A stretch of DNA of 64,000 bases, from assembly GCA_947492825.1 (NCBI GenBank), contig CANLNT010000001.1:2294001-2358000 (forward strand), read 5' to 3'. Made by a program: the position numbers and the translations under genes. Origin of the DNA: an uncultured Paracoccaceae bacterium. Lineage in GTDB: Bacteria; Pseudomonadota; Alphaproteobacteria; Rhodobacterales; Rhodobacteraceae. Shown piece by piece: positions 34,215-63,767 of the stretch. Position 1 is the stretch's first letter. Every line of letters starts with the position of its first letter. The notes beneath the pieces are model-generated. The model worked only from the letters and a program-made list of their open reading frames with translations, did no database searches and was not told the DNA's origin.

Positions 34215-37200
34215 CTATTGCACCGCCCGAATGGCCCGTACGATCCGCAAGCCTGCGCCGCGCCAGCGATCGCGGATCAAGGCCTCTGCCGCGTCCAGTC
34301 GCGCGCGCGCCAGTTCACGACCTTCGCCGTTCACATAGTAGTTCAGGTTCAGCACCACCGGGCTGTCGCCCACCTGCTGCGCCAAGTTGTCAATCCCCGA
34401 TGCCAGCGCGGCAGAGGGGGCCGCCCCGCTGCCAAAGGCCGCCGCCATCAGGTCAATGTCGACCACATTGCCCAGTGCTGCGCCAAAGTTCAGCTTGGCC
34501 ACTGTGCCCGGTGTCACCCGGATCGTGCGCGGGTTTTCGGTGGTGACGGCGTAGCCCGTGGGCAAGGTCCGCTCATCCAGTTTCAACGTGAAATTGGACC
34601 CAATCGACGCAGGCAGTTCCGCACATGGCACACTAAAGCGGCCATAGGCATCTGTGGTGATCAACGTGCCGTTCACCGTTGACAGGCGCACATTCGGCAA
34701 GCCCGGTTCTGCACCCGGTGTCAGCACCTCGGGTGCCAGCTTGCCGCCGCCTTTTCCGCCGTAGTAGGTCTGATCGGTGATCTGTGAGCGGTCAGGTTCA
34801 ATCACACCATCCTGATAACCGTTGAAGTTCTCATCATCGAACACCTTGCCGATGATGTCGGCGCATTCGAATACCGGCTCTGGCGGGCGGGTCAGGGTGG
34901 CGGTGGCGATGTTGGACACCACCTCGCCATCCGGGCCCAGCATATAGGCGCGGTTCACCATCTCGACCGCATCCCCCACCAAGCGCGCGTCAAAGGTCAC
35001 GCTGCTGGTGCCCAAAGGTGCCAGCGTCAGCGGAGACCAACGCAGCTGATTTCCAACCGTTTCGGGATCATCAATCGCTACGCCATCAAAGGCCGATGTG
35101 CCGGGCGTGTAGATCACACCGGCAGGCATGATATCGACCGCAGTCAGCTGCGCCTCTTCCTGTGCAAGGCGGTTCTGGAAGGTCAGCGTATAGGTTACCG
35201 TGCCACCGCGCAGCACCGTTTCCGGGGCCACCGATTTGGTGGCAAAGATGTCGGGGGCTGCGACCCTTGGTATCTCGACCGATGCGGTCACCGCCTCGGA
35301 AATGGTCGAGGACACCACCGAAACGACATTGGCCTGTCCGGGGAAGCCCTGGCTGGTGTCATAGTCCACATCAAACTGCAACGTGCCTGTGGCACCGGGT
35401 ACGAGTGAGACACCGCTGGTCAGCAGGTTGATGTCATTGCGACCGTCAAAGCCGGGGTTCGGCCCGCCTGTTCCGATCCAGCCGCTGGCTGTCGGCGTGG
35501 TGGTGCCGATCAGCTCTGCCGGGGTGGTGAACGCCACCAGATCATCGGTTACCTGCACCTCTGTCTGGGTAATGTTGCCGGTGTTGGTCACCGTCACATC
35601 AAAGGTCACGCGATAAAGGTTTGCGCCAATCAGCTCCGGTGTTGTGGCCTCTTTCGTGGCCTCGATGCTGGCAATCTGGTTGATCGCGATGACCGTCGGG
35701 TCATCGGTGGTATTGCCGTCATCATCAATCCCGTTGTCAGAGGTATCGGTGACCGGATCGCCACTTGGGTCCGTCGTTTCGGCCAAAGCGGTGTTCTCGA
35801 CCCCGCCGCTGTCGATGTCGGCCTGCGTCAGCGTATACAGCACGGTGAACGTGTTGATCGCACCGGGGATCAGCGAGGTTTCGTCAGTGCCACTGTCAAA
35901 GGTTATACTGTCCGGGGTCAGCGCATCGCCGTCCAAATTGGTCAGCGTATCGGTGATCACCAGATTGGTCAGCGTGACCGTGCCTGTGTTTTCGGCCGTA
36001 ATTGTGAATTCCACAACGTCACCGGCCACGACGGCCGCATCGAGGTCCGCAAATGGCACCGCAAGCTTGGTCACTTCAAGCGCGGGTGCAGGCGTGATGC
36101 TCAGCACCGTTGGGTCGTCAGAGGTGTTGCCATCGGTGTTGTCGCCATCGTCCGAGACATCGTCGACCGGGTCGCCATTGGGCGCAGTGGCCGTCACCGT
36201 TGCGGTGTTCGAAATGCCGCCTGCGTCCACGTCATCCTGTGTCAGCGTATAACGCAACTCGAACGTTAGCACCTGTCCCGGCGCGATCGACCCCGGCAAG
36301 CTGGCTGGGTTGACGATGGTCGGAGCCGCCGTCGACAGCACCGTGCCATTTGCGTCCGTCAGCGTGTCAGCGACATCAATACCAAAGAGTGTCGTGTTGC
36401 CCTGATTGGTTGCCACCAGCGCAAAGACCACCTCATCACCTGCCACAGCACCTGTGGTGGTGATCGTCTTCACCAGGCTCAGTGCGGGTCCGGGGACAAT
36501 TGCAAACTCGGTCGGGTCATCGTCGGTGTTGCCGTCGGTGTCATCGCCATCGTCAGAGGTGTCATTAACCGGTGTGCCAAAGGGATCAGTGGCTGCAACC
36601 AGCACGGTGTTATCAAACCCGCCTGCATCAATATCGGCCTGCGTGATCCGCTTGGTCCCGGTATAGGTCCAGACCTCGGTCACATCGAGCCGCCCGTCGC
36701 CATCAGTGTCACCGGACAGACTGCCAAATGGCGTGGTCAGCGTGGTCGGCGTGGCAGCAAAATTGCGGCGTGTCATCGTGTCGGTGATGCTGTCGATGTC
36801 CAGCGTCACATCGCCTGTGTTGACCAGTTGAAGGGTATAGGTGACGTCTGTCCCAAGGAAGGTGTTGGGCGCCGACGATGTCTTTGTCACCTCAAGCCCC
36901 GGCATCGCAGGCACTGCCGGTGTGGTGATCGTGTCGTCGCGATCCACCGGTGTGCCGCTGGGGTCCATCGCCGTGGCCGTGGCGGTGTTCTGGATCTCGC
37001 CTGCGTCCTTGTCGTCTTGGGTGACAGTGTAAGACAGCGTGCAGGTCGCATCGGTGGCGCCCACATCAAGTCGCGCGATGTCGCAGGTATAGGCGGGACT
37101 GACAATATCATCGGTGATGGTCAGATCAGTCAGCGTCACGTTGCCGGTGTTTTCCACCGTGAAGGTATAGGTGACACCGGTGCCAACCGCGCCAAAGGGG

Positions 37201-40200
37201 TCCGGCGTGGCGGATTTGGTCAACGTGTAATCAGGCGCAGCCGTCGGGCCACCCACCGTCAAAGAGGTGTCATCGCGCACCGGGTCACCCTGCGGATCAA
37301 TACCGGTGACAAAGGCATCGTTGGGGATGTTGCCGTTGTCGATATCGTCCTGCGTGACCGCATAGGTGCCGGTACAGCTGGCATCCACATCGCCGGGCAA
37401 CAAATCACCCAAGGTGCAATCCAGCGGCAACAGATCATCGCGCGCGCGCACGCCACTGATCGTCTGGTTGCCGTCATTGGTCACCGTCAGCGTATAGGTG
37501 ATCATCTGGCCCACGGTGCTGAAATCGGTCAGATCAGCGGTCTTGGCGATGCTCAGCGATGGGTCGATATCGGCATCTGTCGTCTCGACGCTGGGCGGAG
37601 AGATCACCGGCGTGCCGGGCAGCGGCCCGAAAGAGGTTTCCGCCGTGGCGCTGTTGGTGACACTGCCACTGTCCAGATCGTCCTGATCTATCAGCAGTTG
37701 CCCTTCGCAGGTGGCCGTCTCGGCCGGATCAACCGCATTGGCGGGGGTAAAATCGGGGTCGCCGCCGCCGGGGTTTGGTACCCAGCAGGTGACCGGCGCG
37801 GTCAACAGGGGATCGTTGATCACAATGTCACGTGTAAAGGCCGCATCACCGGTGTTGGTCACTTCAAATTCATAGACCAGCACATCGTTGACCTCGTCAA
37901 ACTCCAGCCCCGGCTGGACAGAGGTGTCCGGGTTCTCGATCCGCACCAGCGTTTTGGTCACGGTCAGGCCGGGAGCTGCCCCGGTGGGCACGGTGACGGA
38001 ATCGGGGGGCGAAGTGGTGCCATCCACTGTCGCCGTTGCCGTGTTGGTGGCAGAACCAACATCAACATCCGGCTGCACCACGGTGTAACTCGCGGTACAT
38101 GTCAGCTCATCCCCCGGTGCCATGCCGGGGTTGGGGTTGGCCGGGCAGCTTGTGCCGCCGGGGATCAGGTTGTCGTTCACGACCAACGGCCCGGTCAGGT
38201 TGACGTTGCCGGTGTTGCGCACGGTGTATTCAAAAGAGATCACAGCGCCCGACACAAAGTTCGCCGGGTTATCAACATCGTTGTCGCCGGTTGAGATCGA
38301 CACAGCCGTTTTGTCTACGGTCAGAGCGGGGGCTTGCTGTGCGGGGACGCTTTCGGTCGCGACGGGGCTGGTCGTGGTGCCATCACTTGCCGTGGCGGTG
38401 TTATCGACCTGCCCCGCGTTCAGATCATCCTGATCCACGGTGTAAGACCCGGTACAGGTCAGCGATGCATCGGGTGCCAAGGGAACGGCGCCACAAGTGA
38501 TGGTCCCACCGGCATTGGTGATCAGCGGGTCAGTGATGCTGATCGGATCGGTGATCGTGACATTGCCGTCATTGGTGACGGAGAATGTATATGTCAGCGT
38601 ATCACCCACGGCGTCAAACGTCGGACCACCCGCAGTGAGTTCCTTGACCAGCGACAGGGCCGGTGCCGCCGGGATCGTCAGCACGGTGCGGTCGCTGTTG
38701 TCACCGGGCGTGCCCGCATCAGTCAGGTCATCAACATCCGTGCCGTTGGGATCGGTCCCAGCCACACGCGCGCGGTTGTCGATGCCACCTGCGTCAATGT
38801 CATCCTGCGTCAACTGATAGGTCGCGCGATAGGTCGCGGTTTCACCCGGGATCAGCGTCCCTTCACCTGAACCCGCATCCGCTGCAAAGAACGTCGGGTT
38901 CGTGGTCAGTGTCAGCGGCGTGCCATCGGCGCGGCGCAGGGTGTCCTGCGGAACGCCGACGCCGGTCAGCGTGACATTGCCGGTGTTGGTCGCCGTAATC
39001 TCGAACCGGACGATCCCGTTCAGCGTGGTCGGCCCCGCCGTGATCACCTTTTCGCCTTCAATGTCGGGCATCGGCGCAATTGGCAGCGTGGTCGGGGTGG
39101 ACCCACCGCCGGGCGTCGGGTGGGATACATCATCAACTGGCGTGCCAAACGGGTCTTCGGCGCTGGCAGTAGCGGTGTTCGACAGACCGCCCGCATCAAT
39201 ATCGTCCTGCGTCAGCACATGGGTCAGTTGATAGGTCCAGACCTCGGTCAAACCCAGAAGGCCATCACCGCCGGTATCCCCGCCTGTAAACGAAGGCACG
39301 GAAGGTGTGATCGGTGTGCCGTCCGCACGGCTGAGCGTGTCAGACAGGCTCACATTATCCAGCGTCACATTGCCGGTGTTGCTGACAGAGATGTCAAAGA
39401 CCACCGTCTGCCCTGCGACCAACGTGGCCGGTGGCGTGACGGTCTTGACCGTCTCCAGCGACGGATCGGGGTCTTCAAGGTCGACCGTTTCGGTTGCCGT
39501 TTCGGTTGGTGGTGGTGTCACACCCGCCGGTGGGGTCGCATCAGCGCTGACGATATTGGTCAGGTCATTGCCCGCATCTATATCGGCCTGTGTGACCACA
39601 TAGGTCGCGGTCAGTTGCGCGGTGTCAGTCGGGTCAAGCGATGCAATCACCCCACCCGATGAAATCGTCAGGTTCGCGGTGCCACTGGCAGAGGTATGCG
39701 CATCCGTCAGTGTGATCGCGGTCAGCGTCACATTGCCCGTATTCGCGACGGTGTAGGTATAGGTGATCGTGTCGCCCTCTGCGACATTTGTGGTGTCAGA
39801 GGCCACCTTGGAGATTGTGAAATCAGGGTTGCGGCTGCCGCTTACCGTGACCGTCGCGTCGTCATCAATCGTGCCGCCATTGACCGGGTCGGCCACCTCT
39901 GCGGTGGCGATGTTGGTCACTTCGCCCGCGTTCACATCGTCTTGGTCCACGGTATAGGTGCCGGTGCAGACAAAGAAACTGTCGGGCAACAAGACCGGGT
40001 CAAAATCTGGCGCAGGCCCGGTGTCTGGCAGTGAATTGCCGCAAGACAGGCTGGGGATCAGATCGTCCGTCACAGTTGTGGCGGCGGTCAGCGTCACGTT
40101 GCCGGTGTTGGCGATGACATAGCGGTAATCCAGCGTGTCACCGTCATTGGCGAAAGTGGTGTCCAGCGCCTCTTTGGTGATGGTGATCGCCGGTTCGCGG

Positions 40201-43200
40201 TCGGGGCCGCTGCCGGTGATGTCGTCGCTGTCATCAACCGGGCCGTAGTTGTCGGTGGTGGATGTGGCCGTCGCCTCGTTGTCCAGCGTACCGCGGTCGA
40301 TATCGTCCTGCGTGACCGTATAGGTAAACACGCATGATGTATCCTGTTGCCCCGGTGCCAGGGGCCCGATGTCGCATTGCTCACCGGGGAACAGAATGTC
40401 GGTGACTGTCGTGCTGGTCAGCGTGATGTTGCCGCTGTTGGTTACGGTGATCTGATATGGCACCTGCTGACCAACCGCTGAGAAGGCGGTCATCGGCTCG
40501 CCCTGTGCCAGCTCTTTGAGGATCGTGACCTCCGGATTGGGGGCCACCAGCGGATGCATGTTGTCATCCATGCCGGTCACCGCCACGCCCTGCGGCGTGT
40601 TGCCTGCCACATCTGCGATATTGTCAAGCGTGGTGCCCGCATCCAGATCAGCCTGCTGCACGGTATAGCTGCCGGTACAGACCGCTTGCTGACCGGGTTG
40701 CAAGGTCGTGGGACTGGCCGCACCATTATAAAGACAGCTGAGGCCCGGGATCAGCGGATCGCTGATCGCCAGACCAGAGATTGTCTGGTTGCCGTCATTG
40801 TCCACTGTGATCTGATAGGTCAGCATATCGCCCACGGCGGCCGGGTTATTGCCCGCTGTCACGGATTTATCGACTGTCAGCAGGTTGTCCGCCACGCCTT
40901 CGACGGTGACTTGCACGGGGGGTGACGAAATCTCGGCGCTGCCAGAGGGGATGGTGGTGACGATGCCTGCAGCATTGTTGGTGACAAAGCCGGTCGTCAG
41001 ACCCGCCTGCACACGGTCCAGATCATCCTGATCAATGATATAGGTCACAGTTTCGGTACAGGTGAATGTCTCGCCGGGGTCCAGATCGTCTGACGGGCCA
41101 GCCGGGGCCACGTCCACCGCCGGGTCAAAACAAGCGATGTCCATGCCGGGGAAATTGTCGTCGCGGATCACGATCTCACGGGCAATCGACGGGGCCAGCG
41201 CGCCGCCGGGGCTCGTGTTGGTCACGTCAAAGGTATAGGTGATCGTGTCACCGATCTCGTCAAATGAAGTGACATCCGGGGTCTTGGTGATGGTGATGGT
41301 CGGCGGCTCACCCTCTGGCACTGTTTCGGAGGTTGGCGGGCTGTCCACTGTGGGGCTGGATGCAAAGGCAGTGTTGGTCACGCTGCCAAAGGCCACGTCA
41401 TCACTGCTGATCGGATAGGTCGCGGTACAGCTGACCGGCGCATCGGTCGGATCAAGATCGCCTGCGAAACAGGTAAAGGTGCCGATCAGGTTATCGGTAA
41501 TCTCAATCGGGCCAACAATTGTCTGATTGCCCGTGTTGGTGATCTGATAGGTGTATTCAAGCGTCGAGGACGTGTTGAAGCCACCGTTGCCCAGAATATT
41601 TGTCAGTTCTTTTTCAACTTCCATCGCGGGCGTCTGCACCGCGTTCACAGTGACCGAGGCAGGCGTGGGCGTGGTCACAGGCGCACCGCCAAAGGTGGTC
41701 GCTGCGGTGGCCGAGTTTGTAAAGCTGCCTGCGTCGATGTCCGACTGCTGGGCCGTCCAGATCGCAGTACAGGTCACTGCGCCGCCGGGGGCCACGGCAC
41801 CGCTGCCGCAGGACAGGGCCGGGTCAATGTCAGGGTCGTTGACCGTAAATGGCGCAGTCAGGGTCACGTTGCCGGTGTTGCGCACTGTGAATGTATAGCT
41901 GACCGTGTCACCCACCGCCGCATAGGTCGATGGCGTGCCGGGGGTCACCACCTTGTCGATTTCGATGCTCGCGCCCTGCGTGGCGTTGACCGTCACCGTG
42001 TCCGTGGGGGATGCCACATCGGCAGACCCGTCGGGGTGGGTGGCGGATGGCACCACCGGCTGGGTCACCTCTGCAAAGGCCACATTGGTCACATCGCCCG
42101 TATCCAGATCATCCTGCGTGACCGTATAGCTGGCGGTGCAATTCAGGCTGTCGCCGGGGGCAAGACCTGCACCAATTGGATCACAAACCACCGGCGTGCG
42201 GTCATCATCCACCGTGATCGGTTCTGTGATGGTGATCGCACCGGGATTGCCTGCAGCCACATTGGTGACCACGTAATTGTAGGTGATCGTATCACCCACC
42301 GCGCTGAAACCACCGGTGGGCGAGGATTTGACGATGCTTAGCTCTGGGGTCTGGTCGGGGCCGGGAATGGTATTTTCGTCGCTCGCATCGACCGGCGTGC
42401 CTTCCGTCGTGACACCGGTCACATTGACCGTGTTCACCACCGCGCCAAAGTCCACCTCGTCCTGGGTGATCGTCAGATCGGCACTCAGCGCGGGCGCACC
42501 ACCGGCACAGGTTGTCGCGGTCGCACCGGGGGCCAGATCATCCAGCGCACAGTTCAGCGTGATGCGCGGATCAGGATCGTCAATCGTCAGGCCGGTCAGT
42601 GTGACATTGCCGGTGTTGGTGACTGAAAAGTTGTAGGTCAGCGTATCACCCAGCGCAAAGGCGCTTGGGTTGCCTGCGATGGTCTTTGAAACGCTGACGC
42701 CGGGCATCTCTGCGGGGCCAGGTACAATCACGGTGGCGCTGTCAGTCTCTGCCGGGCCACTTGGCGGGTTGCCGGTCACATCACCGGTGTTCGAAAATTC
42801 GCCCGCGTCCACATCGCTTTGCTGCACGGTATAGGTGCCGGTACAGGCATAGCTGGCGCCGGGCGCCAAATCCTGCGGCGCACAGGCCGGGGCAAAGGTG
42901 ACATCCGCATCGGTGATCGTCACACCGGTCAGCGTCACATTGCCGGTGTTGCGCGCGGTCAGGGTAAAGGTGACCACATCGTTTTCCAGCGTAAAGCCGC
43001 CATCAGCCACCTTTGTGACGTCAACCGAAGGATTAGCCGCAGGACCGGTCACAGTATTCATGTCGTTTTCGTTCAGCCCGTTCGCGGCAGATGCCGCAAA
43101 GGCTGTGTTCACATAAGATCCCGCATCAATATCGTCCTGCGTGATCGTATAACTGCCCACGCAGCTGCTGTCGGTGTCGCCGGGTGCAATGGCAGGCAAG

Positions 43201-46200
43201 TTACAGCTGAGCCCCAGTTGTGCATCGGTCACCACCACATCGGTCAGGGTGATCTTGCCGTCGTTCAGGACGTCAATCACGTAATCAATCCGGTCACCCA
43301 CGGCTGCAAACGTGGTGGCAGAGGCGCGCTTGTCCACGTCCATACTGGGCAGCACGGTTCCATCGGCATTGACCGTTTCGCCATCGGTGTCGGTCAGTGG
43401 TGCACCGCCGGGGGTGCGGCCCAGCGCGGTGGCCGTATTGGTCACAAACCCCCGGTCCAGATCAGCCTGTATGATCGTATAGCTATAGGTGCCTGCGCAG
43501 CTTTCGGTGCCAAAGGGCGCAATTGGCCCCACTGAACACACCGCCCCGCCCAACAGCGGGTCGCTGATGTCCACAGTTGAAATGGTCTGGGCAGAGGTGT
43601 TGGTCACGCTGAAGGTGTAGTCAATCGTATCGCCCAGATCGCCGAAATCCGCCGTGGCCGTGGCCTTGTCCAGCGTCAGGCCGGGGGTCACGGCAGAGGG
43701 CACGGTTTCAGTGACTGCAGGGCTGGTCACATCGGTGCCCGACACGCTGAGCGTGGCGGTCGCCATGTTCACGACCTCTGCGGCATCAATGTCGGGCTGG
43801 GTGACGTCATAGGTGCCAGTACAGGTCAGGCTATTGCCGACGGTCAGGGCGGCAGGCAGCGGGTTGGGATCGGAACAATCAACCCCGCCTGCCGGAATCT
43901 TGTCGTCGCTTACAATTGTGGTGGGGTCCACGCCGGTCAGGTCGATATCCAGCGTGCCGTCATTGGTGACCGTATAGGTATAGGTGATCGTCTCACCCAG
44001 CGTGGAAAAGCTCGCCAGATCAGCCGTCTTCGCAATGTCCAGCGACGGCGTGCCGGTGGGCGACAGGCTGACGCTGTCGGCGTTCGATACCACCGGGTCG
44101 CCGCCAAACGTTGTCTCTGCCGTGGCGGTGTTGTTCACGAAACCCGCCGTCACATCCGCCGTGGTGATGGTGTAGGTCGCGGTGCAGGTCACATCGTCGC
44201 CCGGGGCCAGCGCACCTGCAGGGCAGGAAATCACCGTCGGGCTGAACTTGTTGTCGTCCACAGTGAACGGCCCGGGCAATTCAACGTTGCCGGTGTTGGT
44301 GACCAGATAGCTGTAGCTGATCGTCTCGTTGGTCAGGAACGACCCGTCAAAGCTGCCGGATTTTGCCATGCTCAGCGCGGGCATCTGATCGGCATCCACG
44401 GTCAGGTCGTCCGTGACCGGGGTGATCGCTGTGCCGTCCGGCGTTTCAGCCTCTGCCGTGGCGGTGTTCGTCACTTCTCCCGCGTCCAGATCATCTTGTG
44501 TGATCGTGTAGGGGTCGGACGTACAGGTGATGTTGCCCCCTGCCGGGATGGTGGCCGCAGGGCAGGTTAAGGTGATTTTGTCATCGGACAAATCCACCGC
44601 ATCCAACCGCACATTGCCGGTGTTGGTCAGCAGATAGCTGTAAACCAGTTGATCTGTCGTCGCGGTAAAGGGATCAGGGCCGCTGGCCAGCGACTTTTCA
44701 ACCGTCAACGCGGGCAGAAAGACGGCCGGGATTGTGGCGTCGTCATCGTCCATCGCGGTCGCACCGCTCACAGTGATCGTCGCACTTGCGGTGTTCAGCA
44801 CCTCGCCTGCGTCAATGTCAGACTGCATGACTGTATAACTGGCCGAACACGTGACCGTGTTGCCCGGTGCTACCGCGCCTGCGGGGCAAGACACGCTTGG
44901 ATCAAGCGTATCAGTCACCGTGGGCGGACCCGGCCATGTCACATTGCCGGTGTTGCGAATGGCGATGTCGTAATTCAACACATCACCCACCGCATCGTAG
45001 TTCGCCGTGCCTGCGGTCTTGGTCAGTTCCATCGCGGGTGCTGATGCGGGACCCGTGACCGTCGCTGAACCGGTATCGCTCAGGGACTGATTGTTGGGAT
45101 CGCGCGCACGCGCCGTTGCGGTGTTGACCAGCGATGTCCCGGCGGCAGCGTTGTCCACATCTGTCTGCGTCACAACATAGGTGCCGGTACAGGTGATCGT
45201 GTTGTCGGTGTTGTCAGCCGACAATGGTACAACTTCGGTGGCATCACAGGTCAGCGCCGGGATCAGCGGGTCGGTGACCTGCACATTGCTCAGCGTCGCA
45301 TTGCCGGTGTTGGATACGGTAACAGTATAGGAGATCACCTGCCCTGCGGTGGTGAAGCTGGTTGGCGACGCGACCTTGTCCACGTCCATCGCGGGCGCAA
45401 GTGCGGGACCATTCAGGATTACCTCAGCCTCGAGCTGACCCAATTGCCCGAATTCGGGCATGCCGTTGGCGACGGCGATATTGGTCAACGTCCCGTTGTC
45501 GATGTCCTCTTGCGTGACCGTGTAGGTCGCTGAACACAGTGCTGTCGCGGGTGCTGGCTGGCCACTTTCGGTGCGGGGCAGGAAGGTAGGCGTACAGGTA
45601 ACACTGCCGATCTTATCATCATCAACAGTGATGTTCGAGATATTGACCGACCCGATGTTGGCGACCTCATAGTCATAGGTGATGACCTGCCCGACCGTCA
45701 GATAAGTCGTATCACCGCCGCGCCGAACCTTGGTCAGCTCGTACCCCGGTGCAATGGTGCGGATGTCATTGTTGGGCAGGTTCTCACCACGCCGGAAATC
45801 CCAATAGTTGTCGTTGGGTGTACGGTCGCGCACCTGTGTGGTGGTCTGGCCGGTCGCCAGAATGTTGGCCAAAAGCGCCGGATTATTGGAACTGAACCAG
45901 CCCGTGTTGGTGGTGTTATTGCCAAACCCGTCCTGAAAGCCAAAACTTTGCGTGCCATTGGTATTGGTGATCTCGGTCGTCAGCCCCGACCAGTTGCCAA
46001 CATCAAAGCCGTTCATCACCAGTTCAATATTGTTGCGGTCAAAGCCGCCGACCTGGGTATCACCGTCATAGGCCGTAAAGCGCACGTCGATCTGCGCAAT
46101 CGATCCGCCAAAATAATCCGTACAGCTGCGAAACCCGCAATCCAGCCCAATCGGGTCGTTGATCGTAAAGGGGTTACCCCGGAATTGGCTGGGAGTGCCG

Positions 46201-46451
46201 TTGTTCTGGAATCCACGGAACGCGCCCGCTGGGTTCGAAAATTGGTAATAGATGTTGCCGTTGGACCCGGTCAGCACGATCGCGACGCCGCCGGCTTCGG
46301 GGTATTCGGGCGGCAGCGCCACACCGCTTCCTGGCACGGTGCTGGTGAATGGTGTCGCTGTGGCAGGGGTGGCGTTGGCAATAAGCCCCAGAGCCACTGC
46401 AGCGGTCATGCCCCAAAGACCTTTTCCTGCCCTGCGCAACACATTCGCCAT
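34215..46451 (-). CDS. Giant secreted DUF11-repeat protein (4078 residues)
   Basis: The signal peptide ends near residue 33 (LGLIANATPATATPF). A unique N-terminal beta domain (about 34-235, rich in Asn/Gly) follows. About 30 DUF11/TIGR01451-type repeats of roughly 120 residues come next (about 236-3855), each with an NTGN(V/I)TLT strand and a TQDDIDAG motif. An SdrD-B-like domain follows (about 3860-3995, GKVFDDENFNGYQDGVIEP...LPNVRLSTVNG). The tail, about 4010-4078, resembles a cut-down OmpA-like peptidoglycan-binding region (ELARARLDAAEALIRDRW). The protein is very acidic and Thr-rich. It is translated just ahead of the barrel gene. A surface adhesin or stalk-like structure is the best inference; no ligand is known. 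Confidence 0.88.
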   Translation of the reverse strand: MANVLRRAGKGLWGMTAAVALGLIANATPATATPFTSTVPGSGVALPPEYPEAGGVAIVLTGSNGNIYYQFSNPAGAFRGFQNNGTPSQFRGNPFTINDPIGLDCGFRSCTDYFGGSIAQIDVRFTAYDGDTQVGGFDRNNIELVMNGFDVGNWSGLTTEITNTNGTQSFGFQDGFGNNTTNTGWFSSNNPALLANILATGQTTTQVRDRTPNDNYWDFRRGENLPNNDIRTIAPGYELTKVRRGGDTTYLTVGQVITYDYEVANIGSVNISNITVDDDKIGSVTCTPTFLPRTESGQPAPATALCSATYTVTQEDIDNGTLTNIAVANGMPEFGQLGQLEAEVILNGPALAPAMDVDKVASPTSFTTAGQVISYTVTVSNTGNATLSNVQVTDPLIPALTCDATEVVPLSADNTDNTITCTGTYVVTQTDVDNAAAGTSLVNTATARARDPNNQSLSDTGSATVTGPASAPAMELTKTAGTANYDAVGDVLNYDIAIRNTGNVTWPGPPTVTDTLDPSVSCPAGAVAPGNTVTCSASYTVMQSDIDAGEVLNTASATITVSGATAMDDDDATIPAVFLPALTVEKSLASGPDPFTATTDQLVYSYLLTNTGNVRLDAVDLSDDKITLTCPAATIPAGGNITCTSDPYTITQDDLDAGEVTNTATAEAETPDGTAITPVTDDLTVDADQMPALSMAKSGSFDGSFLTNETISYSYLVTNTGNVELPGPFTVDDNKFSPTVISCPAGALAPGDDVTCTATYTITTADVTAGFVNNTATAETTFGGDPVVSNADSVSLSPTGTPSLDIAKTADLASFSTLGETITYTYTVTNDGTLDIDLTGVDPTTIVSDDKIPAGGVDCSDPNPLPAALTVGNSLTCTGTYDVTQPDIDAAEVVNMATATLSVSGTDVTSPAVTETVPSAVTPGLTLDKATATADFGDLGDTIDYTFSVTNTSAQTISTVDISDPLLGGAVCSVGPIAPFGTESCAGTYSYTIIQADLDRGFVTNTATALGRTPGGAPLTDTDGETVNADGTVLPSMDVDKRASATTFAAVGDRIDYVIDVLNDGKITLTDVVVTDAQLGLSCNLPAIAPGDTDSSCVGSYTITQDDIDAGSYVNTAFAASAANGLNENDMNTVTGPAANPSVDVTKVADGGFTLENDVVTFTLTARNTGNVTLTGVTITDADVTFAPACAPQDLAPGASYACTGTYTVQQSDVDAGEFSNTGDVTGNPPSGPAETDSATVIVPGPAEMPGVSVSKTIAGNPSAFALGDTLTYNFSVTNTGNVTLTGLTIDDPDPRITLNCALDDLAPGATATTCAGGAPALSADLTITQDEVDFGAVVNTVNVTGVTTEGTPVDASDENTIPGPDQTPELSIVKSSPTGGFSAVGDTITYNYVVTNVAAGNPGAITITEPITVDDDRTPVVCDPIGAGLAPGDSLNCTASYTVTQDDLDTGDVTNVAFAEVTQPVVPSATHPDGSADVASPTDTVTVNATQGASIEIDKVVTPGTPSTYAAVGDTVSYTFTVRNTGNVTLTAPFTVNDPDIDPALSCGSGAVAPGGAVTCTAIWTAQQSDIDAGSFTNSATAATTFGGAPVTTPTPASVTVNAVQTPAMEVEKELTNILGNGGFNTSSTLEYTYQITNTGNQTIVGPIEITDNLIGTFTCFAGDLDPTDAPVSCTATYPISSDDVAFGSVTNTAFASSPTVDSPPTSETVPEGEPPTITITKTPDVTSFDEIGDTITYTFDVTNTSPGGALAPSIAREIVIRDDNFPGMDIACFDPAVDVAPAGPSDDLDPGETFTCTETVTYIIDQDDLDRVQAGLTTGFVTNNAAGIVTTIPSGSAEISSPPVQVTVEGVADNLLTVDKSVTAGNNPAAVGDMLTYQITVDNDGNQTISGLAISDPLIPGLSCLYNGAASPTTLQPGQQAVCTGSYTVQQADLDAGTTLDNIADVAGNTPQGVAVTGMDDNMHPLVAPNPEVTILKELAQGEPMTAFSAVGQQVPYQITVTNSGNITLTSTTVTDILFPGEQCDIGPLAPGQQDTSCVFTYTVTQDDIDRGTLDNEATATSTTDNYGPVDDSDDITGSGPDREPAITITKEALDTTFANDGDTLDYRYVIANTGNVTLTAATTVTDDLIPSLSCGNSLPDTGPAPDFDPVLLPDSFFVCTGTYTVDQDDVNAGEVTNIATAEVADPVNGGTIDDDATVTVSGSRNPDFTISKVASDTTNVAEGDTITYTYTVANTGNVTLTAITLTDAHTSASGTANLTISSGGVIASLDPTDTAQLTATYVVTQADIDAGNDLTNIVSADATPPAGVTPPPTETATETVDLEDPDPSLETVKTVTPPATLVAGQTVVFDISVSNTGNVTLDNVSLSDTLSRADGTPITPSVPSFTGGDTGGDGLLGLTEVWTYQLTHVLTQDDIDAGGLSNTATASAEDPFGTPVDDVSHPTPGGGSTPTTLPIAPMPDIEGEKVITAGPTTLNGIVRFEITATNTGNVTLTGVGVPQDTLRRADGTPLTLTTNPTFFAADAGSGEGTLIPGETATYRATYQLTQDDIDAGGIDNRARVAGTDPNGTDVDDLTDAGTPGDNSDRTVLTIPAAPALSLVKELTAGGPTFDAVGDTLTYTFSVTNDGNVTITDPISITDPLITNAGGTITCGAVPLAPDASLTCTGSYTVDQDDLNAGQVDNTATASDGTTTSPVATESVPAQQAPALTVDKTAVSISTGDNDVDNPANFVSGAVISFEYTVRNTGNVNLTGPLVVNDNLIPGGTSCPANPNPGMAPGDELTCTASYTVVQPDVDVGSATNTATATVDGTTSPPDSVTVPTGAAPGLTVTKTLVRIENPDTSVQPGLEFDEVNDVLVYEFEVTNTGDAAFTRDIVINDPLLTAPVTCWVPNPGGGDPDFTPANAVDPAETATCEGQLLIDQDDLDSGSVTNSATAETSFGPLPGTPVISPPSVETTDADIDPSLSIAKTADLTDFSTVGQMITYTLTVTNDGNQTISGVRARDDLLPLDCTLGDLLPGDVDASCTGTYAVTQDDIDNGNIPNDAFVTGIDPQGDPVRDDTSLTVGGPTAAPDYTLTKSATPDPFGAVGTGVTYTFTVENTGNVTLTDLTITDDIVSPAYTCDIARLDVGATDATCTLSYTVTQDDKDAGEIQNTATATAMDPSGTPVDRDDTITTPAVPAMPGLEVTKTSSAPNTFLGTDVTYTLQLVNTGDVTLDIDSITDTMTRRNFAATPTTLTTPFGSLSGDTDGDGRLDVTEVWTYTGTKRITQADIDAGGFDNTVLVAATDPFGTPVNDTSDDGDDTDGNTDDDPTEFAIVPGPALSLVKTITTTGAVAGDEVVFALVATNQGNTTLFGIDVADTLTDANGTVLSTAAPTIVNPASLPGSIAPGQVLTFELRYTLTQDDVDAGGISNTATVTATAPNGDPVDDVSDDGDNTDGNTSDDPTVLSITPAPALEVTKLAVPFADLDAAVVAGDVVEFTITAENTGTVTLTNLVITDTLTNLDGDALTPDSITFDSGTDETSLIPGAINTFTVLYTLTQADIDSGGVENTALAETTDPSGDPVTDTSDNGIDDDGNTTDDPTVIAINQIASIEATKEATTPELIGANLYRVTFDVTVTNTGNITQTEVQVTDDLVAFTTPAELIGTTTPTASGWIGTGGPNPGFDGRNDINLLTSGVSLVPGATGTLQFDVDYDTSQGFPGQANVVSVVSSTISEAVTASVEIPRVAAPDIFATKSVAPETVLRGGTVTYTLTFQNRLAQEEAQLTAVDIMPAGVIYTPGTSAFDGVAIDDPETVGNQLRWSPLTLAPLGTSSVTFDARLVGDAVEMVNRAYMLGPDGEVVSNIATATLTRPPEPVFECADIIGKVFDDENFNGYQDGVIEPDRSQITDQTYYGGKGGGKLAPEVLTPGAEPGLPNVRLSTVNGTLITTDAYGRFSVPCAELPASIGSNFTLKLDERTLPTGYAVTTENPRTIRVTPGTVAKLNFGAALGNVVDIDLMAAAFGSGAAPSAALASGIDNLAQQVGDSPVVLNLNYYVNGEGRELARARLDAAEALIRDRWRGAGLRIVRAIRAVQ
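34887..45746 (-). repeat. About 30 tandem DUF11-type coding repeats
   Basis: In-frame tandem repeats with period close to 360 bases encode one DUF11 domain each. They are diverged at DNA level but share the coding for NTGNVTLT and TQDDIDAG, so AACACCGGCAACGT-like words recur. Most repeats have a Cys pair in the second half (pattern C...APG...C). Repeats 18-20 and 26-30 lack it and instead carry Asp-rich DDGDDTDGNTDDDPT-like linkers. Confidence 0.88.
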
Positions 46452-53867: not shown

Positions 53868-58632
<4,765 letters not shown>

Positions 58633-58738
58633 GCGCTCCCCCTCACAGGCTGCTGATAACACACCCCGTGTCCCCGCAATAGCCGCGGATGCAATGATGA
58701 AAATGGGGCTTGCGAAACGTCGCTTTCAAACGCAGTAT

Positions 58739-58881: not shown

Positions 58882-59934
58882 CTAGGACAGCACAGCCGAC
58901 CCATCCGCGCCGAAAAAGTGCAGATCATCCGCCGACAACTGTAGCCCAACCTGATCACCCGGTGCCAGATCGCTGTTGCCAGTCACCCGCACGGTGACCT
59001 GACCCAGATCACCGCAGGCCAGAATGACAAAGGTATCCGCGCCCAGATATTCCAGCACATCCACCGTGCCATCAATCTGACCACTGCCGAGGGCACCCAG
59101 CGTGATATGCTCGGGCCGAATGCCCAGATGCGTGGCAGGCGCGCTGCGCCCGTAAGCGCCACCGCGATGGCCTGACAGCGCATAGGCGTCACCGGATGTC
59201 TGGCAGGGCATCACATTCATGCGCGGGCTGCCGATAAACTGCGCCACGAACAGGTTTGCAGGCCGCTCGTACAGCTCGCGCGGGCTACCCACTTGCGCAA
59301 TCTTGCCCGCATCAAGCACCACAATCCGGTCCGCCAGCGTCATCGCCTCGACCTGATCGTGGGTGACATAAATCATCGTGGTCTTGAGCGACTGATGCAA
59401 CTTGGCAATCTCGTATCGCATCTCGACCCGCAAAGAGGCGTCAAGGTTCGAAAGCGGTTCGTCAAACAGGAACGCCGTTGGGTCGCGCACGATTGACCGG
59501 CCGATTGCCACGCGCTGGCGCTGCCCGCCTGAAAGGTCCTTGGGCCGCCGGTCCATATAGTCGTCCAGCTTCAGCACACGCGCGGCCGCGTTCACCTTGG
59601 CGTCAATGTCTTCCTTCGGCAGCCCCGCCGATTTCAGCGGAAAGCCCACATTGTCGCGCACCGACATATGCGGATAAAGCGCGTAAGACTGGAACACCAT
59701 CGCCAGCCCCCGCTTGCTGGGCGGCTCTGCGGTCGCATCGCGGTCGCCCACCATGATCTGCCCGCGAGAGGTTTCCTCCAGCCCCGCTATCATCCGCAAC
59801 AAGGTCGATTTTCCGCAGCCCGATGGGCCCACGAAGATGATGAACTCGCCCTCTTCCATTGCCAGATCAACACCTTTGATGACCTGCACATTGCCAAACC
59901 ATTTTTCGACGGATCGTAGCTCTATCGAAGACAT
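58882..59934 (-). CDS. aglK: Alpha-glucoside-type ABC transporter ATP-binding protein
   Basis: 350 residues. Walker A is GPSGCGKST (K42), the signature [18 protein letters not shown], Walker [13 protein letters not shown] and the H-loop THDQVEA. A regulatory C-terminal OB-type domain follows ([17 protein letters not shown]). It is the last gene of the agl operon on the minus strand and shares one base with the preceding hydrolase gene (TGATG-type overlap). It powers AglF/AglG. Confidence 0.93.
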
Positions 59935-61196
59935 CAGGCCGCCCCTTGTTGCTGGGTTGTTTCACGTTCACGCCCGGCCCAGGTCAGCCAGATCGCCGCC
60001 GTCCAAGTGAAATCGGCACCGCCACAGGGGGTCATATCCACCGGGTCGAAATATTCATAGAAACCGTGCTTGCGGATCAGCGCCGCCGTCTCGGCCCGCA
60101 GCCGTTCGGACAGATCCGCATGACCGCTTTCAGTCAGGCCAAGCGCAATCAGCGCATTGACCACCGGCCATGTCGGCCCGCGCCAATAACGGCGCGGATC
60201 GAAAATCTTGTTTTCCGGATCGGCCGAGGGGATGCCGTAATTGACCGCATCCCAGGCCCGCATCAGTTCTGCATCCAACCGCGGGTTCCCGGCACCCGCG
60301 ACATAGGCCAGAAACGCACCCGACCCCAGCACACCTGCAAAGGCATCCGTGCGCAGGTTGCGCGCGTCATAGGCACCCAGCGCATCGTTCCAGATCAGCG
60401 GCAAGGCAGAGCGAAGCTCGGTCGCCCAAGCCTCCAGCGTGCTGACATCCTCGCCCAGCGCACGGCCAATTGCGGCCAAATCCTCATGCGCGCGCAGCAG
60501 CACAAAGGTGATGCCGGGATCAGCCATCAGAAACGGCCCCTCGGCAACAATCCGGGCCTGATCCCACCCCGTCTCGCGCCCGAACTGCAGCATCGCGATA
60601 TAGCGGTCGTAGTCTTCCTTGCCGGGCCGCATCTCGGGGTCGACATGGCCTGTGTCGCGACGCGTGTAGTCGCCGACACGCGACCCATCGACACCTGCCA
60701 TGCCGATATCCCAATCGGGGCAATTGTCGCGCCCGCTTTCCCACGGATGGGTGATCGCGACCGGTCCGGTGGTGCAGCGGAAATCATGCCACCAGCGGTG
60801 CCATGCGACCAGCTTGGGGAACAGCGCCTTGATCCGCGCCGTACCCGCCGCCTCATCCGCCGCCCAGATCTGGCGCGCGATAATCGCCGCAACCGGCGGC
60901 TGGCTGATGCCCGAAGATGCGGGCGTGCGGCCCGTGCCCCAGACATCCGGTCCGGGAAAATACCCCGGATCAGACTGGTGGAAAATGATATGCGGTACCA
61001 TCCCGTCGTCCCACTGGCTTGCCATCAGCGTGTCCAGCTCGTCCCAGGCCCGGCCAATATCAAAGGTCGAAAACCCCCAGGCCGCAAAGGCGCTGTCCCA
61101 GTTCCACTGATAGGGATAAAGCCCATGGGTCGGCACGGTATAACCACCCCTGTCATTGCGTCGCAGGATTGCGCGCGCCTCGTCATCAAGGTTCAT
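59934..61196 (-). CDS. GH63 / mannosylglycerate-hydrolase-like (MGH1) glycosidase
   Basis: 420 residues forming an (alpha/alpha)6 barrel, without a signal peptide. Family marks are [32 protein letters not shown] (putative acid D157), [17 protein letters not shown] and [23 protein letters not shown] (putative base E381). Related enzymes hydrolyse mannosyl- or glucosyl-glycerate and other alpha-glucosides. It occupies the operon position where a GH13 alpha-glucosidase (aglA) is usual. Substrate is therefore an open question: a compatible-solute glycoside is possible. It overlaps aglG by four bases. Confidence 0.82.
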
Positions 61197-62407
61197 CCTT
61201 TGACACTCCCCGCCGTCAGGCCCTTGGTCATGAATTTTTCCAGCCCCAGAAACAGCGCCATAATCGGCACGGTGGCAATCACCGAGCCCGCCATCAGATG
61301 CTGGCGCGGAATTTCCGAGGAATTAAGCGACGCGATCCCCCGCGTCAGTGTGAATTTCGATGGGTCATCCAGCAGCATGAAGGCCAGCAGGAACTCGTTC
61401 CAGGCGATCATGAAAACATAAAGCGAAACAGAGGCGAGCGCCGGCAGCGACAGCGGCAAGGTGATCTTCCAGATCACCTTTAGCCGGCTTAGCCCGTCCA
61501 TCAGCCCGGCCTCTTCAATCTCGGCGGGTAACCCACGGAAATAGCCTTGCAACATATAAAGCGCCACGGGGATCGTCGTGACCGGATAGATCATGATGAT
61601 CCCACCCAGCGAATTGCGCAGGCCGGTCATGGAAAAGGCGATGTAGATCGGCAGCGCCAGCACGATCATCGGCACCATATAGATCAGCAGGATCGAGCGT
61701 GAAAACGCCGCCTGCCCCCGGAACCGCAATCGCGCCACCGCATAGGCACCGGGGATCGCAAAGGCCAGCGTGATGAAGACGGTCAGCACAGAGATCGCGA
61801 AGGAATTGAACAGATAGGTGCCGAAATTGAACTGTCGGAACAGCTCATCATAGGACCGGAACAGCCCCCAGCCCTTGCTCAGGTCGATTGAGAAATCGAG
61901 CGGGTTCTGGATCAGCTCCGCCTGGTTCTTCAGGCTGGTCATCACCATCACATAGAACGGGATCAGCACAATCGCGGTAAAGAAGATATATCCGAAACCG
62001 GTCAGGAACCGGATCACTGCTGCCTCAAACTCATGCCGGGTCAGCGCGCCGGGGGTGATGTCGGTCAGGATGACCGCCGTCGACACCGCAAAGCTGCCGG
62101 CCAGAATGACCGCCCCAATCACTTGCGCCACACCGCCAACACCCGCGCCGGTCAACATCGGACCGATCCCGAACAGCACCAGCGCCACAATCGCCGCGCC
62201 AATCAGTTCCTGCATCACCGCGCTGCGGCCCCAGGCCACGATCAGCGCGCCACCCAAGCCGCCCCACAACAACGAAAGCAGGATACCGGGGCGGAACGCA
62301 TCGCCGGTGGCAAAGGACATCGCCACACCCACGGTCGTGGACAGGACCACCATCCACAACGCCCCCAGCACAGGGCCTGTCACATAGCCAAACCTCAGAC
62401 CTTGCAT
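61193..62407 (-). CDS. aglG: Alpha-glucoside-type ABC permease with extra N-terminal membrane domain
   Basis: 404 residues, about 100 longer than a standard MalG-like permease. Residues about 1-140 add roughly four hydrophobic helices (VLGALWMVVLSTTVGVAMSF, LLSLLWGGLGGALIVAWG, IGAAIVALVLFGIGPMLTGAG, VIGAVILAGSFAVSTAVIL). The six-span core follows, with EAA loop EIEEAGLMDGLSRLKVIWKITLPLSLP and the classic ending [17 protein letters not shown] 62407 has an AAGAAGGAGG ribosome site; the frame open further upstream runs through the palindromic element and is not coding. Confidence 0.9.
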   Translation of the reverse strand: MQGLRFGYVTGPVLGALWMVVLSTTVGVAMSFATGDAFRPGILLSLLWGGLGGALIVAWGRSAVMQELIGAAIVALVLFGIGPMLTGAGVGGVAQVIGAVILAGSFAVSTAVILTDITPGALTRHEFEAAVIRFLTGFGYIFFTAIVLIPFYVMVMTSLKNQAELIQNPLDFSIDLSKGWGLFRSYDELFRQFNFGTYLFNSFAISVLTVFITLAFAIPGAYAVARLRFRGQAAFSRSILLIYMVPMIVLALPIYIAFSMTGLRNSLGGIIMIYPVTTIPVALYMLQGYFRGLPAEIEEAGLMDGLSRLKVIWKITLPLSLPALASVSLYVFMIAWNEFLLAFMLLDDPSKFTLTRGIASLNSSEIPRQHLMAGSVIATVPIMALFLGLEKFMTKGLTAGSVKG

Positions 62408-62522: not shown

Positions 62523-63767
62523 TCATAGCCCCTCCTCCCGGCTGACGAAGCGGAAGAAGAAGACCGAAAACAGCAGCAGACAGGCAAAGATCACCACGGC
62601 CACCGCCGCACCGGCGCCGATGTTGCTAACCGCAAAGGCCTGCTCATAGACGTTCACCGTCAGCGTCCGGGTGCCCGCATTGCCCCCTGTCAGCAGAAAA
62701 ATGTCGTCAAACTTGTTGAACGTCCAAATGAAGCGCAACAGGAACAGCACGCTCAAGATACCCAACAACTGCGGCACGCTCAGATACCAGAACTGCTGGA
62801 ACGGGCTGGCCCCGTCCATGTCGGCGGCCTCATACATGTCGCTGTCAATCGACTGCATCCGCGCAAGGATGAACAGGAACGACAGCGGGAAATAGCGCCA
62901 GATTTCAAAGACTGTCACCATGATCAGCGCCAGCGGGCGCTCGCCAAAGAAATTGATCGCTTCCGTTGTTACACCCATCTGCACCAACAGCGCATTGGCA
63001 CTGCCCGAAAACGGGTCGAACAGCAGAATCCAGGCGAAGGCCACCGCGATCACCGGGGCCACGTAAGGAAACAGATAAAGCCCCCGCAGAATGCCCTGCC
63101 CTTTGAAGGATTTGTTCAGCAGCAGCGCCGCAAACAGCCCAAACAGCAGCGCGCCGATGGTGCCAAAGACGGTGTAGAACAGGGTCACACCCAACACGCC
63201 CCAGAACTCATCCCCGTCAAAGACGCGGGCAAAGTTTTCCCATGTGAAGGTGGCATTGGTCAGCACATTGGCCCCACGCCCGATGGTCACAGCGTCGCTG
63301 TCCTGCGGGCGTTCGCCACCATCCAGATAAGCTTGCTCGATCTCGACAGGGATCATCAGGGTCTCGCGCAGCCCCGGCTCCCAATCGCCCAGATCGCAGA
63401 ACAGATCGCGCCCCTCCAGCGTGCAACGCGGGTCCAGTGCGGTGACACGTAGCCCGGCGGGCAACACATCGCTGAAACTGACACCGGTGATCGGCTGGTC
63501 CTGACTGGAATTGCGCAGCCGGTAGCGGATATTGGCCTGATCGCCGACTGCCTCATCATCGCCACGGATGTCTTCGCGCAGCACCACCTCTGGCGGGCGC
63601 AGATCGGCCAGTGACACAGGCTTGACCGAGATCCAGAAAATCGCAAGCAGCGGCAGGATCACGACCAAGGCCACGGCGATCAACGTGGGCGACAGCAAGC
63701 CCCATGCCAGCCGCGCCTCGCGCCTGCCAAGTGGGCCGGTCCCTTTGGGTGGTGTCAGATCCGTCAT
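62523..63767 (-). CDS. aglF: Alpha-glucoside-type ABC permease with DUF11-like insert
   Basis: 414 residues. After the first span (LLSPTLIAVALVVILPLLAIFW) an insert of about 110 residues (55-165) precedes the remaining spans. Its core, about 78-145, reads like a DUF11 domain (NIRYRLRNSS...ITGVSFSDVLPAGLRVTALDP...CDLGDWEPGLRETLMIPVEI) with C115 and C124 placed for a disulfide. It would face the periplasm, where it could contact the binding protein. The EAA loop reads MYEAADMDGASPFQQFWYLSVPQL. I chose ATG 63767 because MTDLTPPKGTGPLGRRE is the natural start and GGCGGACATC precedes it. Confidence 0.9.
   Translation of the reverse strand: MTDLTPPKGTGPLGRREARLAWGLLSPTLIAVALVVILPLLAIFWISVKPVSLADLRPPEVVLREDIRGDDEAVGDQANIRYRLRNSSQDQPITGVSFSDVLPAGLRVTALDPRCTLEGRDLFCDLGDWEPGLRETLMIPVEIEQAYLDGGERPQDSDAVTIGRGANVLTNATFTWENFARVFDGDEFWGVLGVTLFYTVFGTIGALLFGLFAALLLNKSFKGQGILRGLYLFPYVAPVIAVAFAWILLFDPFSGSANALLVQMGVTTEAINFFGERPLALIMVTVFEIWRYFPLSFLFILARMQSIDSDMYEAADMDGASPFQQFWYLSVPQLLGILSVLFLLRFIWTFNKFDDIFLLTGGNAGTRTLTVNVYEQAFAVSNIGAGAAVAVVIFACLLLFSVFFFRFVSREEGL

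Follow-up and report, generated by a model that had tools for sequence, protein, structure and literature searches.

The window (i.e. the whole 64,000-nucleotide stretch of DNA analysed here, from a marine bacterium) encodes on its minus strand a MalF-like ABC permease, annotated as AglF, in which a domain of ~110 residues (periplasmic by topology, related by profile to DUF11 and predicted to fold as an Ig-like beta-sandwich) is inserted between the first and second membrane spans, in a loop that by alignment is equivalent to the one carrying the P2 domain of the maltose permease MalF. The known kind to which this protein belongs is the MalF-type permease with P2, and what is new is that a different domain occupies the P2 socket; a literature search (in which subscription journals were thinly covered) found no description of a permease with a DUF11 insert. 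As an explanation of the whole, we favour, at somewhat better than an even chance, a glycosylglycerate importer whose DUF11-derived Ig-like domain at the P2 site docks the binding protein.

Permease architecture and membrane topology

The permease gene and its parts are the following (residues are those of AglF):

62523..63767, minus strand: CUT1-type ABC permease 'AglF' (open reading frame and translation; 414 aa; ATG at 63767)
63630..63704, minus strand: transmembrane span 1, residues ~22-46 (hydropathy; equal to MalF span 3 in the joint alignment)
63270..63596, minus strand: DUF11-related, predicted Ig-like domain, residues ~58-166 (Pfam, hhalign, AlphaFold)
63396..63425, minus strand: invariant cysteine pair Cys115-Cys124 (C at both positions in 121/121 distinct sequences)
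62541..63149, minus strand: BPD_transp_1 core, residues 207-409 (Pfam E 5e-16)
within the BPD_transp_1 core, minus strand: EAA loop YEAADMDGAS, residues 312-321 (read from sequence)

AglF carries both marks of a CUT1/MalF-type permease, namely the BPD_transp_1 domain (E 5e-16) and an EAA-X3-G loop (EAADMDG, residues 313-319). At a hydropathy cut-off of 1.6 its span cores amount to five spans, and span 4 (~280-304), which falls under this cut-off, was placed via homology and a predicted helix (277-306). Between span 1 and span 2 (residues ~186-216) lies an acidic segment of ~130 residues, which contains the ~110 residues that AglF has in surplus; the reading frame (414 aa) and its hydropathy thus bear out the insert that the first-pass annotation had described at this place. 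A single hydrophobic span precedes the insert, the N-terminus holds four K/R and two D/E, and in a six-span layout the EAA loop comes to lie on the cytoplasmic side; on account of these N-terminal charges and of the EAA loop, topology places the insert on the periplasmic side, in keeping with the extracytoplasmic location first proposed. Among solved permeases, the top sequence match of AglF is SugA of the mycobacterial LpqY-SugABC system (7cad, 8ja7), which differs in having only ~305 aa and whose match begins at AglF residue 178, past the insert.

Conservation and spread of the insert

Following removal of one insert-free sequence and 12 duplicates, 121 distinct full-length orthologues were compared, and the insert, for which a survey of homologues had been suggested, was found in every one of them (121/121), the segment corresponding to residues 48-178 measuring 125-133 residues. 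No other part of the permease is as poorly conserved as the insert, whose core shows a mean majority-residue share of 0.61 (0.89 in spans 2-6); the residues fixed in its linkers and core include L53, R57, N86, C115, C124 and N178. The FCDLGDWEPG motif to which the first-pass annotation had drawn attention, together with a cysteine pair, was located at residues 123-132, inside the insert, and the pair itself (Cys115/Cys124, invariant in 121/121) probably forms a disulfide.

Insert-bearing orthologues were recovered from 44 of the 198 family genomes (8 others carrying only insert-free relatives), from 10 of the 385 class genomes (belonging to several families, with one additional match that is insert-free) and from 15 of the 398 phylum genomes, all 15 being Alphaproteobacteria; the three samples overlap, and other phyla were covered only via a search of plasmids. 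In that search, 1,811 of 72,556 plasmid records had some permease match (E 1e-10) and five of the 72,556 matched the insert (E 1e-3), every one of them an orthologue. Within the samples, insert-bearing orthologues are thus confined to Alphaproteobacteria, and this spread, together with the constancy of the insert across orthologues, shows that it is a stable trait of one permease clade and not peculiar to the source genome. A 1.0-Mb alphaproteobacterial genome (loci L129 / L148) shares the gene order, and its permease, although strongly diverged (44% overall identity) and without a DUF11 match, retains both cysteines.

Relationship of the insert to DUF11

DUF11 usually occurs repeated in large surface proteins. 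The first-pass annotation had held that the core of the AglF insert matches the DUF11 pattern, a claim that stands for the family and falls short for the single protein: against Pfam DUF11 (PF01345), whose curated gathering cut-off is 24.6 bits, the whole AglF of the window scores 17.5 bits (E 0.0055) and its insert alone 20.5 bits (E 6.5e-4), both below that cut-off, and for this reason we term the domain 'DUF11-related' instead of assigning it to DUF11 by the Pfam rule. When ten distant orthologues were scanned singly, seven matched DUF11 at E <= 1 and two exceeded the cut-off (L125 with 32.6 bits and L128 with 28.1 bits); at E <= 0.1, matches were present in 73 of 81 near orthologues and in 14 of 17 diverse ones. 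Furthermore, a DUF11 search of 115 class genomes recovered unaided, with 30.4 bits, a permease (in genome G306) that is the same protein as L128. An hhalign comparison of 97 inserts with 14 DUF11 domains (two of 16 stretches, which contained stops, having been left out) gave a probability of 96.5, an E-value of 8.5e-10 and a score of 58.5, and 60 column-shuffled versions of the inserts scored at most 14.6 against DUF11. By these profile comparisons, the relationship between insert and DUF11 holds at the family level, beyond chance.

The insert shares with DUF11 / B_ant_repeat (PF01345, TIGR01451) the core sequence pattern, as judged by profile, and the predicted Ig-like fold; it differs in being a single, divergent domain in a loop joining two membrane spans, whereas a giant protein of the same window contains repeats. 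This protein (34215-46451, minus strand, 4078 aa) comprises 29 DUF7507 and 26 DUF11 stretches. A special kinship between it and the insert, a tie at which the first-pass annotation had hinted, was considered and dropped: an HMM built from the 97 inserts gave a total E-value of 0.012, with no individual domain significant.

Predicted fold of the insert

In an AlphaFold2 model of AglF computed with 81 sequences, the insert is modelled with confidence, at a pLDDT of ~90 for the greater part of residues 60-165; the model is poor in the membrane region (overall mean pLDDT 60.4, pTM 0.40) and therefore does not fix the orientation of the insert. A second AlphaFold model, of the insert alone (mean pLDDT 80.1), agrees with the full-length one in its strands and their order, and the domain is thus confidently predicted to be an Ig-like beta-sandwich, in accordance with the fold initially supposed. 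Fold searches with the insert ranked highest the Ig-like beta-sandwiches of many unrelated proteins, among them 9ifr, which is the CLIPPER domain of a fibrillar adhesin from Gram-negative bacteria (Foldseek E 1.5e-4; Z 9.9 and rmsd 2.7 across 105 residues), and the cellulose-binding domain 6qfs_A (Z 10.3, rmsd 2.5, 93 residues), which we take to be a family 2 carbohydrate-binding module; other near folds were a macroglobulin receptor-binding domain, TRAP-alpha and the AP2 mu subunit. Such tied matches indicate the fold class and not the function. MalF was not among the matches listed in these searches, which weighs neither for nor against a fold shared with P2. The first-pass annotation had named a lacking DUF11 profile match, and an unstructured or cytoplasmic insert, as findings that would speak against it; at the family level the profile match is there, and the insert is predicted to be structured and periplasmic.

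Operon and probable cargo

The remaining genes scanned in the operon and its neighbourhood, downstream of AglF on the same strand, are:

61193..62407, minus strand: second permease 'AglG' (open reading frame; 404 aa from ATG at 62407; Pfam BPD_transp_1 5.1e-20)
59934..61196, minus strand: MGH1-like glycoside hydrolase, probable glucosyl/mannosylglycerate hydrolase (PF22422 E 4.6e-116)
58882..59934, minus strand: ABC ATPase of UgpC/MalK type (PF00005, TOBE_2)
57625..58662, minus strand: LacI-family regulator (PF00356, PF13377)

AglG matches the NCBIfam MalG model at 3.3e-33, below that model's cut-off. An N-terminal extension of ~110 residues with several hydrophobic stretches precedes its MalG-like core; this extension evolves faster than any other segment measured (mean distance 1.09) and remained unaligned in some distant orthologues.

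The alpha-glucoside (Agl) operon is defined by an alpha-glucosidase gene within it, and the Sinorhizobium AglEFGAK alpha-glucoside system has a binding protein and two permeases in the gene order seen here. The operon of the window shares this order and differs in its hydrolase: no alpha-glucosidase was found among the operon genes scanned, the sole hydrolase there being MGH1-like, with best PDB matches to 2z07/4wva (E 3.6e-102) and 5ohc (E 1.3e-58), presumably mannosylglycerate and glucosylglycerate hydrolases, whose activity it probably shares. The name AglF, which the first-pass annotation had adopted, is accordingly doubtful, and 'alpha-glucoside transporter' is probably a misannotation.

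The binding protein AglE lies beside the permease in 80 of the 80 near loci, and the order binding protein-AglF-AglG-MGH1-like hydrolase-ATPase is kept in 70 of them; the hydrolase was detected in 71/80, and in 7/80 the ATPase is present and a hydrolase match absent. Among the distant insert-bearing loci with surroundings (n=13), 11 have the hydrolase. The two that do not (L144 and L150) are hydrolase-less operons in which the cargo or the hydrolase may differ. In Limimaricola and Maritalea the operon has a glycerate kinase gene as its neighbour, and none was found beside it in Ruegeria, Thalassospira and Paroceanicella within the stretches inspected; the source genome carries a glycerate kinase gene away from the operon. 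The MGH1-like hydrolase in the operon and the glycerate kinase neighbours together make a glycosylglycerate (i.e. glucosylglycerate or mannosylglycerate) the likeliest cargo, and the Paroceanicella operon, which is without hydrolase and adjoined by an alpha-amylase-family gene, speaks against one uniform cargo. Glucosylglycerate is thought to be a main osmolyte in most Prochlorococcus strains, according to one report (PMC3686209). Our literature search, with its thin coverage of subscription journals, found no description of an ABC importer for glycosylglycerates that is paired with such a hydrolase.

Equivalence with the P2 loop of MalF and origin of the domain

The P2 domain of MalF comprises residues 91-271 and lies between helices 3 and 4 (PMC3150292, PMC2246101), and MalF has two extra N-terminal spans (PMC2246101). 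In a joint alignment that includes a true MalF (L184), AglF span 1 equals MalF span 3, and an NF..VF segment past the AglF insert pairs with an NF..VF segment past P2; moreover, phmmer aligns AglF 172-394 to MalF 257-495. From the equivalence of these spans it follows that insert and P2 share one loop (that between MalF spans 3 and 4), as far as alignment can place it, and the initial statement that P2 sits between later spans has to be corrected: the loop is identical, and it appeared to come later because MalF, with eight spans in total, carries two additional N-terminal ones that AglF does not have. In its permease core AglF is homologous with the MalF of the maltose importer of E. coli, which likewise holds a further periplasmic domain in the corresponding loop; P2 differs in measuring ~180 residues and in being unrelated in sequence to the insert (~110 residues). 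The different fold that the first-pass annotation had ascribed to P2 may hold, the difference shown here being one of sequence. The MalF of locus L184 (G000:C1:145958-147394), with its P2-type loop, stands in the same genome as the insert-bearing permease and offers a within-cell comparison.

Unrelated sequences and a tree of the shared core, in which insert-bearing permeases form one clade and MalF another with insert-free permeases between them (the insert-free set excluding matches of < 120 residues or > 55% identity), make two independent acquisitions the likelier reading, short of proof given the weakness of the tree's inner supports in places. That the insert would instead be a diverged P2, inherited together with that of MalF from a common P2-bearing ancestor, is improbable; the identical loop, the similar flanking sequence of AglF and MalF and the beta-rich nature of both domains agree with such a single origin, yet an hhalign comparison of insert and P2 yielded a probability of 0.9 and a score of 16.8, inside the range of shuffles (<= 18.5), with the P2 alignment holding five of 13 MalF sequences (the other eight, uncaught by the P2 motif, being left out). 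The same method, with these 5/13 MalF sequences, thus finds profile similarity to P2 absent and that to DUF11 strong, and the insert-free permeases between both clades (notwithstanding weak inner supports) also count against a shared descent. We consider it extremely improbable that the DUF11 match itself is a chance likeness of a generic beta domain: the window's AglF does score under the curated cut-off and three of 17 diverse members are without a match at E <= 0.1, but the hhalign score of 58.5 compares with at most 14.6 in 60 shuffles, and two orthologues (L125 and L128) pass the cut-off.

Proposed role of the domain

AglF is, in our reading, a permease of MalF type in a type I ABC importer, and its operon also encodes AglE, AglG, the ATPase and the MGH1-like hydrolase; at the MalF P2 site, between spans 1 and 2, it carries a periplasmic, probably disulfide-stapled and predicted Ig-like domain of DUF11 descent. 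We propose that this domain acts as P2 does in MalF, keeping AglE at the periplasmic side of the pore throughout the transport cycle. In PMC3150292, MalF P2 is described as contacting MalE during the cycle, and dedicated P2 papers are cited as references in PMC3150292, PMC3328499 and PMC8134467. By analogy, docking of AglE is the most likely role of the insert, a reading to which its position and size lead.

An association with AglE was seen in the distance correlation between insert and AglE beyond that of the membrane cores (77/89 loci; partial r 0.28 with 0/300 permutations, and 0.296 in the comparison with controls), and cytoplasmic hydrolase segments, taken as controls, gave a partial r of 0.106-0.252; with controls reaching 0.252, the co-evolution signal is not discriminating. 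The low conservation of the insert, the DUF11 score of the window's AglF under the cut-off and the operons that lack the hydrolase likewise count against the overall reading. This signal, not clearly over its controls, and the occurrence of DUF11 also in large repeat proteins (e.g. the giant protein of the window) lend some weight to the view that the domain makes no contact with AglE and stiffens the permease or touches another envelope component; we regard this as rather unlikely, for what is found here is a single short domain anchored by the pore mouth, with AglE encoded alongside in 80/80 near loci. A domain that itself binds sugar in the manner of a carbohydrate-binding module, concentrating the substrate, appears highly improbable: family 2 modules are indeed among its closest folds (6qfs_A, Z 10.3, rmsd 2.5, 93 residues), but unrelated Ig-like folds score equally, residues 58-166 of the window's AglF hold one Trp, the highly conserved residues of segment 48-178 include just two aromatics (Tyr82 and Phe174), and such a module would be needless for a small soluble cargo. 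Docking of the binding protein by the insert thus stays the reading that we prefer.

Implications

Many type I sugar importers function without an extra periplasmic domain, which makes it puzzling that MalF should need its P2. Another importer with an unrelated domain in this position is a natural second experiment, and if the insert also binds its binding protein, it is the site that matters and not the particular domain. The operon, for its part, points to a widespread alphaproteobacterial route of glycosylglycerate uptake. We tentatively suggest, at a little less than an even chance, that an importer permease captured an adhesin-type DUF11 domain at the P2 loop, so that a periplasmic arm for holding the binding protein was invented a second time, independently of P2. 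If this is true, the P2 loop would serve type I importers in general as a socket into which evolution can place docking domains.
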